Assembly (NCBI GenBank): GCA_017617635.1
Contig: JAFZVW010000020.1
Span: 1-40,294 of the forward strand
Direction of reading: 5' to 3'
DNA: 40,294 nucleotides
From: Bacteroidaceae bacterium
GTDB lineage: Bacteria; Bacteroidota; Bacteroidia; Bacteroidales; Bacteroidaceae
In this document: positions 33,336-39,591 of the stretch, one piece after another
How positions within the stretch are numbered: position 1 is the first letter of the stretch
Layout: every line of letters starts with the position of its first letter
Notes under the pieces: model-generated
The model's database searches: none
Told to the model about the DNA's origin: nothing
What the model saw: only the letters and a program-made list of their open reading frames with translations
Translations under genes and position numbers: made by a program

Positions 33336-34853
33336 TCAATGCTCGGAATGCACTCCCTGCACATGGTCATATTCCTTGCTGATTTCCTGCCTGCGCTTTT
33401 CCTGACGGGCACGATCCTTGGCTTCAAGACGCTCCAGGCGCTTTTTCCTCTGTGCCTTTGTAAGCCAGAAACGCGGAATGAAATCCTTACGCTCAGTGAG
33501 CTTGTAGTGCATAATGAAGAAGAAACCGGAAATACAAATCCAGCAAACGATTTCCATCAGGTTGAATACCGTTACCAGATTCAACTGGAAAGAGAATGCC
33601 ACCCTGTAGATGAAAATCACGGTGCGCAACAGGCTGACGATTGCAGCCAATAGCGAGATACGTTGTATAGACATATAGATTATCTTGTTCAGATGATAGT
33701 AATACGCAATAAAGAATAATGTTACTGGGAACCACGTCGCGGTAATCAACAGGTTGTACATGTATATCCTGGACGAATTCTCGTTACCGTACAGCAGGAA
33801 ATACACAAGCCATCCAACAGCCATTGTCATCTTTACGATCAGCACGCCAAACACGATGAAGGACAATGTCTGCATCGGCAGGTTATAAGGCATCTGGAAC
33901 TCGTTCGTCGGGATGGTCCAGTCAAGCGACGTCAGGAAATTATTATTGACACTCTTGGTACTCTTGTAACCGTACTTCTTCAGTATGAACCGCGGAACCC
34001 ACGGCATACGGAAGCCCAGGAAGAAAAAGCTGCCGTTCCTCTGTGTCAGCCACTTTCCTTCATCATCAAACGTCGGGTATGCATCATATTGAAGGTGATG
34101 GTGATGATGTCCGCCGGACTCCGCATGACTTCGGGACACATGCCCGACATCAGACCTGTCCCTGATTCCCGGAATCCTTTTCCACCACGCCACATGTCCG
34201 TCGTGTCTCACCCTGTTCTGTTCCTCGCGTGTCGGTGCACGGGTTGCCTTTTTCTTCGGAAAGGCTATCTTCAGGAAATGTACTACATCCTCCCACGCAC
34301 CATGACCTACCTTATAATGCAGACTGCTTCCGCCACCTCCTGCCGAATGATGATGGTGGTGGTGATGATGGTCTTTGTTCTTTCTGAATGGAGCGGACAT
34401 CTTGCTCCAGGCCATGGAGAGCGGAGATATAATCCACAAATGCCAGTGCACCGCAAACCACGTACGGACTAACATCAAAAATGTCCATATACGCATCGGC
34501 AGGCCATTGGACCTGAACCTGAATCCGCTCCTACGACTCTCAATAGCCTTGACTACTCCGACCATCTGGCTACGCGTGATACCACGCTCCAGATGTGCAC
34601 GGTCATCTCCGCAAAGCCTGTAGGCGTGCGTCTTGCGTGTACGGGATATAATACGGTTGACAGTCAGGAAACCATCCCTGCGCCTGTAAAGCACCATCGT
34701 ACCGCGTTTCAGGTGCTTTCCCGGCAACGGCCCTATGATACAGATATCCTTGCGCGGATTGATTGTCGGACGCATACTGGAACTGGTAGGATAGAACCTG
34801 GCCTCACCGCAACGCTCTATCTCGTTCTGCAAAATAATCTCTTCCTGTGTCAT
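33336..34853 (-). CDS. Membrane protein with S24/S26 peptidase-like N-terminal domain and histidine-rich loop
   Basis: Residues 1-105 (505 aa in total) resemble S24/S26 signal-peptidase-like proteins: RFYPTSSSMRPTI gives the candidate Ser26, and LTVNRIIS plus LCGDD match the next family motifs. The general-base position (Lys, or His in ER-type enzymes) is Asn66, so catalytic activity is doubtful. A membrane span follows (about 122-145), then a long polar loop (about 150-275) with eight consecutive His (162-169) and five (249-253). Four more spans cover 327-448. The tail is basic and coiled-coil-like (KAQRKKRLERLEAKDRARQE). It overlaps the PqqD-like gene by 4 bp. Together the parts suggest a metal-binding membrane protein with a peptidase-like sensor or docking domain; no named family covers the whole. 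Confidence 0.7.
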   Translation of the reverse strand: MTQEEIILQNEIERCGEARFYPTSSSMRPTINPRKDICIIGPLPGKHLKRGTMVLYRRRDGFLTVNRIISRTRKTHAYRLCGDDRAHLERGITRSQMVGVVKAIESRRSGFRFRSNGLPMRIWTFLMLVRTWFAVHWHLWIISPLSMAWSKMSAPFRKNKDHHHHHHHHSAGGGGSSLHYKVGHGAWEDVVHFLKIAFPKKKATRAPTREEQNRVRHDGHVAWWKRIPGIRDRSDVGHVSRSHAESGGHHHHHLQYDAYPTFDDEGKWLTQRNGSFFFLGFRMPWVPRFILKKYGYKSTKSVNNNFLTSLDWTIPTNEFQMPYNLPMQTLSFIVFGVLIVKMTMAVGWLVYFLLYGNENSSRIYMYNLLITATWFPVTLFFIAYYYHLNKIIYMSIQRISLLAAIVSLLRTVIFIYRVAFSFQLNLVTVFNLMEIVCWICISGFFFIMHYKLTERKDFIPRFWLTKAQRKKRLERLEAKDRARQEKRRQEISKEYDHVQGVHSEH

Positions 34854-35113
34854 TCCAGTAAATCCTTTTCTTCCAACATCGAGACAATACCCTCAACAGC
34901 ATTGCGGATATCAGCCTCGTCTGCCTCGTATTCGTCCATCAGTCTCTTCACGGCATCGTCAACTGTCATGTCTTCCAGAAACATCTGCATAATCCCGGCA
35001 CCTGTATCGTTCAGCTGTATTACGCCGGGGAATGCCCTGGCATCATCACCTACCGTTATTGCCAGAGTGACCGTATGCAAAGGCTGGAACACAAAATTGT
35101 ATTTAAGTTTCAT
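34850..35113 (-). CDS. PqqD-like protein (RRE-type peptide chaperone)
   Basis: The 87-aa protein fits PqqD: a short beta-strand start (KYNFVFQPLHTVTLAITV), INLNDTGA-type motif (VIQLNDTGAGIMQMF) and a helical C-half with TVDDAVKRLMDEYEADEADI and VEGIVSMLEEKDLL. PqqD-type RiPP recognition elements hold leader peptides for modifying enzymes. Its ATGA overlap with the downstream S26-like/His-rich gene makes a two-gene unit. No radical SAM enzyme or precursor peptide is next to it, so the partner is unknown. A -7-like box (TATCTTTG, 35140-35133) lies 20 bp upstream of the ATG. Confidence 0.85.
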   Translation of the reverse strand: MKLKYNFVFQPLHTVTLAITVGDDARAFPGVIQLNDTGAGIMQMFLEDMTVDDAVKRLMDEYEADEADIRNAVEGIVSMLEEKDLLE

Positions 35114-35132: not shown

Positions 35133-35189
35133 CAAAGATACAAAATTAAATACATTATACATGAACATCTCGTTTTTTTTATATCTTTG
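35133..35189. promoter_or_regulatory. Divergent -7 boxes for the PqqD-like unit and the GH84 gene
   Basis: TATCTTTG occurs on both strands, at 35140-35133 (minus, toward the PqqD-like gene) and at 35182-35189 (plus, toward GH84). Neither has a clear TTTG 19-21 bp upstream. The 104-bp intergenic region is AT-rich and holds nothing else. Confidence 0.45.
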
Positions 35190-38862: not shown

Positions 38863-39591
38863 CTACCTGACAGGACACTTGAGCATGCTGCGGAACAATT
38901 CCACGGCATGCTTCTGTTTTTCCGGGGACAGAGGCGGGACATCCTTCAGCACATAGTCAATCCCCATCTTCTCGTACTTGAACTTGCCCAGGTCATGGTA
39001 AGGCAGGATCTCGACCTGCTCGATTACCGGATACCCCGACAGATACTCCGCCACAGCCTTCAGATGCACGTCGTCATCATTTATGCCCGGCGTCACCACA
39101 TGACGTATCCACACAGGCTTGCCTATTTCCTGCAGATACTGCATGAACCTGTGGTTGTTGGTACGCGCGACACCCGTCAGCCTCTTGTGCAGCTCGTCAT
39201 CCGTCGTCTTTATGTCCAGCAGGACCAGGTCCGTCTCCTCGAGCACAGCCTTGGCCGCATCGTTGAAAATCGCACCGCTCGTATCCAGTGCCGTCGGTAT
39301 GCCGTTCTCGTGACACAGCCTGAAGTACTCCCTGACAAATTCAGGCTGCACCAGCGGTTCGCCACCGGTACAGGTCACACCGCCCGACTGAATGAAACTG
39401 CGGTATTTCAGCGTCTCGGCCATAAGTTCCTCGGGCGTCCACTCCCACTGCACATTGCCGTGTATGTCCCACGTATCCGGATTGTGGCAGAACTGACAAC
39501 GCATGGGACAACCCTGCATGAAAGCAAGGAAACGTATACCCGGACCGTCAACTGTCCCGAAAGACTCTATCGAATGTATGCGACCTGTCAT
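38863..39591 (-). CDS. pflA: Pyruvate formate-lyase activating enzyme
   Basis: This radical SAM enzyme installs the glycyl radical in pyruvate formate-lyase. The 242-aa protein has the CxxxCxxC cluster at Cys28/32/35 (QGCPMRCQFCHNPDTW), preceded by IHSIESFGTVDGPGIRFLAF, a PflA hallmark, and CTGGEPLVQPEF. The length is normal. The partner pflB is not in the window. A -7-like box TATATTTG lies at 39624-39617, giving a leader of about 19 nt; no clear -33 is present. Confidence 0.93.
   Translation of the reverse strand: MTGRIHSIESFGTVDGPGIRFLAFMQGCPMRCQFCHNPDTWDIHGNVQWEWTPEELMAETLKYRSFIQSGGVTCTGGEPLVQPEFVREYFRLCHENGIPTALDTSGAIFNDAAKAVLEETDLVLLDIKTTDDELHKRLTGVARTNNHRFMQYLQEIGKPVWIRHVVTPGINDDDVHLKAVAEYLSGYPVIEQVEILPYHDLGKFKYEKMGIDYVLKDVPPLSPEKQKHAVELFRSMLKCPVR

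Follow-up and report, generated by a model that had tools for sequence, protein, structure and literature searches.

The closest described counterparts of the locus reported here are the clusters of the linear polyphosphorylated peptide (LPP) RiPP family. According to the available part of PMC13381572, these clusters occur mainly in Bacillota, combine a SpI peptidase, a discrete RRE, a HprK-like kinase, an NTP transferase, a MsbA-like transporter and YxxP precursors, and often sit in capsular polysaccharide loci. Furthermore, the same part of that source reports that LppB is required for leader cleavage by LppS, the RRE presenting the leader to the S26 peptidase, and that each of the changes S29A, H68A or D93A in LppS abolishes the cleavage. 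YxxP is given as a known RRE recognition motif in what is available of PMC12710340. RiPPs of Bacteroidales are treated in PMC10352776, as far as its available part goes, and the main text of PMC13381572 has no word beginning with Bacteroid. Regarding signal peptidase homologues without activity, staphylococcal SpsA is listed as inactive in the accessible part of PMC12445088, where it lacks two conserved residues and accompanies SpsB.

We liken the gene pair described here to LppB-LppS, as presented in the available part of PMC13381572, by gene content and description: it also consists of a discrete RRE and an S26-type peptidase-like protein. Unlike LppB-LppS, it has an Asn at the base position, and its S26-like domain is fused to a His-rich loop and to a membrane domain of unfamiliar type. 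Like SpsA (PMC12445088, available part), its S26-like domain is a signal peptidase homologue without the full set of catalytic residues; unlike SpsA, it keeps the Ser, has the base replaced, is fused to further domains and is paired with an RRE. SEC11A and SEC11C align with the family of this domain in the S-M-x-P and base columns, but they have neither the Asn base nor the His-rich loop and membrane domain that follow it here. In the open-access PMC literature, as far as its texts were available (PMC10352776, PMC12445088, PMC12710340 and PMC13385932 among them), we found no description of a pair made of an RRE and an inactive S26 domain, and the available texts of the same literature yielded no description of an LPP cluster in Bacteroidota.

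The reading we prefer, which we advance tentatively and as somewhat short of probable, is that the pair is a pseudo-peptidase offshoot of an LPP-type RiPP leader-processing pair and holds peptides at the membrane without cutting them. The original prediction had proposed a new system, and here we depart from it, as the pair appears to be a variant derived from an LPP-type one.

The gene pair, its setting and its distribution

The window is the whole stretch of DNA analysed, 40,294 nucleotides long, and corresponds to the entire contig C48. The genome is a draft of 2.05 Mb in 65 contigs and is 85% complete. The pair lies on its minus strand:

35133..35140, minus strand: TATCTTTG, upstream of the pair, fitting in 4/4 orthologues the consensus TAnnTTTG, which we take to be that of the Bacteroidota -7 element
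34850..35113, minus strand: PqqD-like discrete RRE protein of 87 aa, matched by PF05402, with a 4 bp overlap with the start of the 505-aa gene
33336..34853, minus strand: 505-aa gene with an S26-like domain, a His-rich loop, a membrane domain and a basic tail, 65-81% identical to its orthologues

The PqqD-like protein matches PF05402 with an E-value of 5.5e-12 and 46.3 bits, the curated cut-off being 23.4, and it has in this respect the discrete RRE of the LPP clusters. The divergent gene upstream of the pair encodes a hexosaminidase (beta-N-acetylglucosaminidase), and downstream of the pair there are the genes for ribosomal protein S15 and TypA/BipA, together with one whose YfhO match narrowly misses the cut-off. 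Unlike in an LPP cluster, no kinase, NTP transferase, transporter or precursor was recognised beside the pair among the genes scanned between 27.5 and 40.2 kb, and the same holds for a peptide-modifying radical SAM enzyme; the LPP combination of HprK-like kinase, NTP transferase and MsbA-like transporter was therefore not found there, and these absences count against our preferred reading. The precursor start MKKxYxxP, with up to one mismatch, had 0 matches in the window. One radical SAM gene alone was identified in the vicinity (38863-39591), and its match, above the cut-off of TIGR02493, is to pyruvate formate-lyase activase and not to a peptide maturase. The PqqD-like gene and the 505-aa gene look like a self-contained unit. 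Both open reading frames, the two-gene organisation, the PqqD-like nature of the small protein and the lack of an adjacent radical SAM enzyme or precursor were already part of the original prediction, and our results agree with it on these points, for the precursor as far as the MKKxYxxP start is concerned.

Full-length orthologues of the 505-aa protein were found in 4 of the 139 genus genomes searched, the window's own included, with identities of 80% (UBA6974), 81% (RUG795) and 65% (UBA3646). These carriers are four drafts, 64-85% complete. Among the 18 genus genomes with a completeness of 90% or more and a contamination of 5% or less, there was no full-length match, and this narrow distribution counts against our preferred reading. 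Another 33 genomes had weak matches (best E-values of 0.002-1), and their scores led us to discard them as chance matches or remote S26 relatives. An earlier search of 60 relatives had matched the window's own genome alone.

In 4/4 genomes the PqqD-like gene adjoins that of the 505-aa protein, the two overlap by 4 bp, and the hexosaminidase gene is present as well. The S15-TypA side is kept in 3/4, because no S15 gene is listed between the UBA3646 copy and the end of its contig. We also looked at the S15 flank of genus genomes without the pair, 13 of which were fetched, and in the four that were read the pair was absent from that place. A misassembly as the origin of the architecture was rejected, since four draft genomes carry it. 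The pair is beyond chance, because the two genes, their overlap and the hexosaminidase neighbour are kept in all four genomes and the domains are under purifying selection.

The PqqD-like protein is 77-87% identical in the three orthologues, and its gene has dN/dS ratios of 0.098-0.153 (3/6 pairs computable) against 0.056-0.081 (5/6 pairs) in the neighbouring hexosaminidase, all these ratios being rough because the synonymous sites are near saturation against UBA3646. It evolves therefore somewhat faster than the hexosaminidase, which counts against our preferred reading.

The S26-like domain and its base position

The first 107 residues of the 505-aa protein contain the nucleophile and base positions of S26 enzymes:

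34533..34853, minus strand: S26 signal-peptidase-like domain, residues 1-107, with 34/104 residues identical to the S26-like protein of locus L103, and with matches of the alignment profile A5
34776..34778, minus strand: Ser26, the nucleophile position (S-M-x-P), invariant in 35/35 aligned sequences
34656..34658, minus strand: Asn66, the general-base position, Asn in 4/4 orthologues and His in 31/31 other aligned relatives

The motif SSSMRP starts at residue 24, LTVNRI at 63 and GDD at 82. The domain alone found no match in the Pfam or NCBIfam models, and no S26 entry was matched when the protein was compared with the PDB; its assignment to S26 is therefore transitive, through its relatives. 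A profile of the four N-terminal domains of the clade had matches in 31 of 399 sampled family genomes (E-value up to 0.01, own genome included). The alignment A5 has 35 sequences, that is, the four clade members, 29 of the 31 non-own matches, and L002 and L018, which were added by hand; the second match of G395 and that of G292, both without a locus, were left out. In A5, Ser26, Met27, Asp36 and Arg67 are invariant in 35/35 sequences. The profile of A5, made mostly of sequences from outside the clade, matches SEC11C (E 3.3e-4), signal peptidase IB (1.7e-3) and SEC11A, and weakly LexA. In the printed alignments, its base column is the His of the HR in SEC11A/C and the Lys of the KR in signal peptidase IB.

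Nevertheless, most of the relatives scanned against curated models were below the cut-offs, and this counts, together with the transitive assignment, against our preferred reading. Among five S26 relatives, one was above the cut-off of Peptidase_S24 (PF00717), two were below it and two had no Pfam match; 4/5 matched archaeal-type signal peptidase I (TIGR02228) below the cut-off, and none was above any NCBIfam cut-off.

The window domain has the S-M-x-P box of the S26B (Ser-His) signal peptidases, but the His base of their HR(I/V) box is an Asn. In the same way, the Ser, His and Asp that are essential in LppS are not all there, as Ser26 is kept and the base is Asn. Column 66 of A5 holds Asn in the four clade members and His in the 31 others, and the Asn codons of the four orthologues are AAC, AAC, AAT and AAC. 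Asn66 is fixed in the clade, and we do not attribute it to a sequencing error. The original prediction had read a retained Ser26 and an Asn in place of a Lys or His base out of the window protein, and the alignment that it proposed bears this out, since column 66 coincides with the base position of both SEC11 and signal peptidase IB. It had also counted GDD as kept. This holds for the window protein, but the other three orthologues have GDN, and only G82-D83 is invariant in the clade. D83 and E89, the candidates for a catalytic acid like D93 of LppS, are each invariant in 4/4 clade members, and so are Lys74 and His76.

The dN/dS ratios of the S26-like domain, rough like those above, are 0.065-0.148 (5/6 pairs computable), and the domain is therefore constrained, somewhat less than the hexosaminidase with its 0.056-0.081, which again counts against our preferred reading. 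This is a natural, selectively maintained replacement, at a position matching the LppS residue whose mutation inactivates, in a protein that keeps its RRE partner. Therefore, the re-use of RRE-peptidase pairs as non-cutting peptide receptors can be tested.

The conserved residues may also be read in favour of an enzyme that is still active, in which Lys74 or His76 has taken over as the base and the peptides brought by the PqqD-like protein are cleaved by the membrane protein. Both residues could act as a base and do not vary in the clade, the four positions invariant in A5 include the nucleophile, and purifying selection acts on the domain. However, the base column is His in 31/31 other relatives, with SEC11 sharing this His and signal peptidase IB having a Lys, and H68A abolishes cleavage by LppS (PMC13381572, available part). 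We consider an active protease unlikely.

In our preferred reading, the pair would descend from an LPP-type cassette. In systems of that type, a PqqD-like RRE binds the YxxP leader and presents the cleavage site to an S26 enzyme of the archaeal Ser-His type. The window domain, with its Ser retained and its base now Asn, would be the product of a fusion to the His-rich loop and to a lineage-specific membrane domain of four clear spans. The PqqD-like protein would still load onto it a peptide made elsewhere in the cell, presumably from the cytoplasmic side, and the S26-like domain would hold this peptide at the membrane without proteolysis. The membrane domain would then transmit the holding of the peptide, be it for sensing, for retention or for a hand-over in export or immunity, so that the pair may serve in signalling or transfer. 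This reading draws on the conserved gene pairing with its overlap and hexosaminidase neighbour, the PF05402 match, the S26 homology, the Asn of the clade at a position of His in the relatives, the purifying selection, the PqqD and YxxP findings at the related loci and the published work on LppB-LppS; the invariant Lys74 and His76, which could act as a base, speak against it.

The His-rich loop and the membrane domain

The remainder of the 505-aa protein is organised as follows:

34389..34532, minus strand: linker, residues 108-155, with a weak hydrophobic segment at 117-135 (mean hydropathy 1.38)
34056..34388, minus strand: His-rich loop, residues 156-266, with 20 His in 111 residues
34347..34370, minus strand: run of eight His (residues 162-169) in mixed CAT/CAC codons, seen in the sequence
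34095..34109, minus strand: run of five His (residues 249-253), seen in the sequence
33882..34055, minus strand: conserved block before the membrane helices, residues 267-324, dN/dS 0.019-0.067 (3/6 pairs computable)
33495..33881, minus strand: membrane domain, residues 325-453, with four clear spans, dN/dS 0.039-0.119 (6/6 pairs)
33336..33494, minus strand: basic C-terminal tail, residues 454-505, and the stop codon

The loops of the four orthologues have 20, 14, 17 and 24 His in 107-114 residues, so that His makes up 13-21% of the loop versus 2.5-3.8% elsewhere in the same proteins (4/4 orthologues). The loop is at the same time the fastest-evolving part of the protein (pN/pS 0.23-0.48, 6 pairs). 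Six alignment columns are His in 4/4, the run lengths vary, and an insertion splits the runs in UBA3646. The runs of eight and five His had been pointed out in the original prediction, which would have been weakened by their loss in homologues; actually the loop is His-rich in all four, with runs of variable length. Metal binding by the loop is no more than plausible.

Regarding the membrane part, strong segments are found at residues 332-350, 365-383, 401-419 and 429-447, and the segment at 117-135 is weak and contains an Arg. The five spans that had been predicted are therefore not secure: four of them are clear and the fifth is the weak one. If the spans are four, the loop and the basic tail would share one side of the membrane, probably the cytoplasmic one by the positive-inside rule. 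The last span contains the motif CWIC, that is, a CxxC (C437-x-x-C440, 33534-33545), invariant in 4/4 orthologues, and may be relevant to a role with metals or in redox reactions. His387 and His449 of the membrane domain are also invariant in 4/4.

One alternative drawn from these residues is a protein that mainly handles metals or redox reactions at the membrane, to which the S26-like fold and the PqqD-like protein would contribute as a scaffold or in regulation. In favour of it are the high His content that the four loops keep despite the drift of their sequence, the place of the membrane part among the most conserved regions, with its two invariant His, and, modestly, the invariant CxxC. 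Against it, the 505-aa protein has no Pfam match at an E-value up to 1, its fragments gave no transporter-like match (the best was to an unrelated model, E 0.15), and none of the scanned neighbours is named for metals. Such a role seems to us as improbable as that of an active protease.

We found no credible relative of the membrane domain among 399 sampled family genomes and 393 sampled order genomes, a result valid for those two samples, because the larger groups were subsampled and the three known orthologous genomes were absent from them; viral contigs, plasmids and PDB sequences gave none either. All eight matches of its profile outside the own genome were put down to chance or composition: six weak ones (E 0.003-0.009) came from the family sample and two (E 1e-4 and 5e-4) from the order sample. 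The better of the two order matches, in L110, is a 538-aa protein that looks by eye like a MFS-like transporter, and the other contains 4 internal stop codons. We regard the 50 PDB matches of the whole-protein profile as an artefact, as their best stretches all overlap profile positions 156-266; the two alignments shown are, by eye, to tag sequences. In PHROGs, one of the four clade members matched a single family, an endolysin, with an E-value of 0.023, which we also took as chance.

A bolder form of our preferred reading is that a RiPP leader-peptidase pair has turned into a peptide receptor, in which the RRE would load a leader onto an S26-like domain unable to cut, and a new four-span domain with a metal-binding loop would convert the occupancy by peptide, and perhaps by metal, into a signal or into transport. 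We regard it as less probable than the preferred reading itself, yet ahead of the two alternatives above. If it were true, the pair would be a pseudoprotease receptor assembled from RiPP parts.

S26/PqqD cassettes in related genomes

The original prediction stated that S24/S26-like proteins often travel with PqqD-type proteins, and the loci of the relatives agree with this, as does LppB-LppS in the available part of PMC13381572. Of the 31 aligned relatives, 11 loci were read (L002, L018, L055-L060, L062, L066 and L073, some of them in a short or a long form), and PqqD adjoins the S26 relative in 10 of them; it was not seen in L059. In L103 (genome G248), PqqD, an HprK-like protein, the S26-like protein and an ABC transporter form one run of overlapping genes, and the PqqD protein shares 23/86 residues with that of the window, the corresponding figure for the S26-like protein being the 34/104 listed above. 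The term HprK-like rests here on matches below the cut-offs (PF07475 with E 0.026, TIGR00679 with E 8e-4), and in the other loci on a similar P-loop seen by eye.

The locus L102 (1-14564) has two radical SAM genes, two PqqD, S26, a kinase-like protein, NTP_transf_5 (PF14907) and an ABC transporter. L106 (5267-14852) and L108 (5581-14076) resemble it by eye in the genes other than the ABC transporter, the family scans of cassette genes having been made on L102, and the S26 His is intact in all three. Polysaccharide-type genes flank L059, L066, L073, L102 and L108, the five loci picked by eye for the scan.

Candidate precursors of 129-141 aa, starting with KKxYxKP or alike, adjoin the S26 loci in L102, L106 and L108. 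Ten such proteins, one of them from L058, can be aligned; K, Y, K, P, E and F are invariant within the first 15 positions and the later parts are variable. No NCBIfam match was found for the 5/10 that were scanned and no Pfam match for the 4/10 that were scanned. The DNA pattern for MKKxYxxP has 11 matches in 9/10 genomes (about 32 Mb), and some of them are chance, because this number hardly exceeds the 7 matches of a reversed control pattern. However, 5 of the 11 fall in the 158 kb around the S26 loci, in 4/10 stretches. The binomial chance of this is 1.3e-9, and 1.2e-7 if the match that had prompted the pattern is left out, although the five are not independent, because two are neighbours in one genome.

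The LPP clusters, as described in the available part of PMC13381572, and the cassettes of this family have in common HprK-like proteins, an NTP transferase (NTP_transf_5), ABC transporters, YxxP proteins and polysaccharide genes nearby. At the level of gene content, this suggests that LPP-like cassettes also occur in Bacteroidales, the clusters described in the available part of that source being mainly from Bacillota.

The window's own genome has one such cassette on contig C6 (L002, 31-1725), which also combines PqqD with an S26-type protein. Unlike the window pair, its S26 protein has VLHRI, with the His intact, a HprK-like protein is recognised by eye, and there is no membrane domain. This cassette leads to another explanation, in which the window protein would export the product of the genome's own HprK-like/S26/PqqD cassette or confer immunity to it, and the pseudo-peptidase would be the receptor for the mature or unprocessed peptide. 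Apart from the PqqD of the pair, each of the four clade genomes has a single PqqD match, and that of the window's genome belongs to this cassette; an ABC transporter ends the L103 cassette, whereas none was recognised by eye in 7 kb around the own one. Nevertheless, PqqD matches are present in 133/139 genus genomes and at least two of them in 35/139, so that the two of each clade genome are not specific to the clade. The two PqqD proteins of the window's genome are also distant (18/67 identical), and the YxxP pattern was found at neither the window pair nor the own cassette. This explanation is the least likely of those considered here.

The window's genome also encodes two small peptides with a start MKK(E/Q)YI(K/E)P and an end IWDNAW, at L084 1501-1686 (61 aa) and L085 1501-1692 (63 aa). 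As partners of the pair they are candidates only, and that they belong to it is unsupported, since both are on other contigs. Each of them follows a long open reading frame that ends in a similar GINI(I/V)NG motif. In one of the related loci (L066, 712-1866), a single 384-aa open reading frame appears to fuse the HprK-like and the S26-like proteins.
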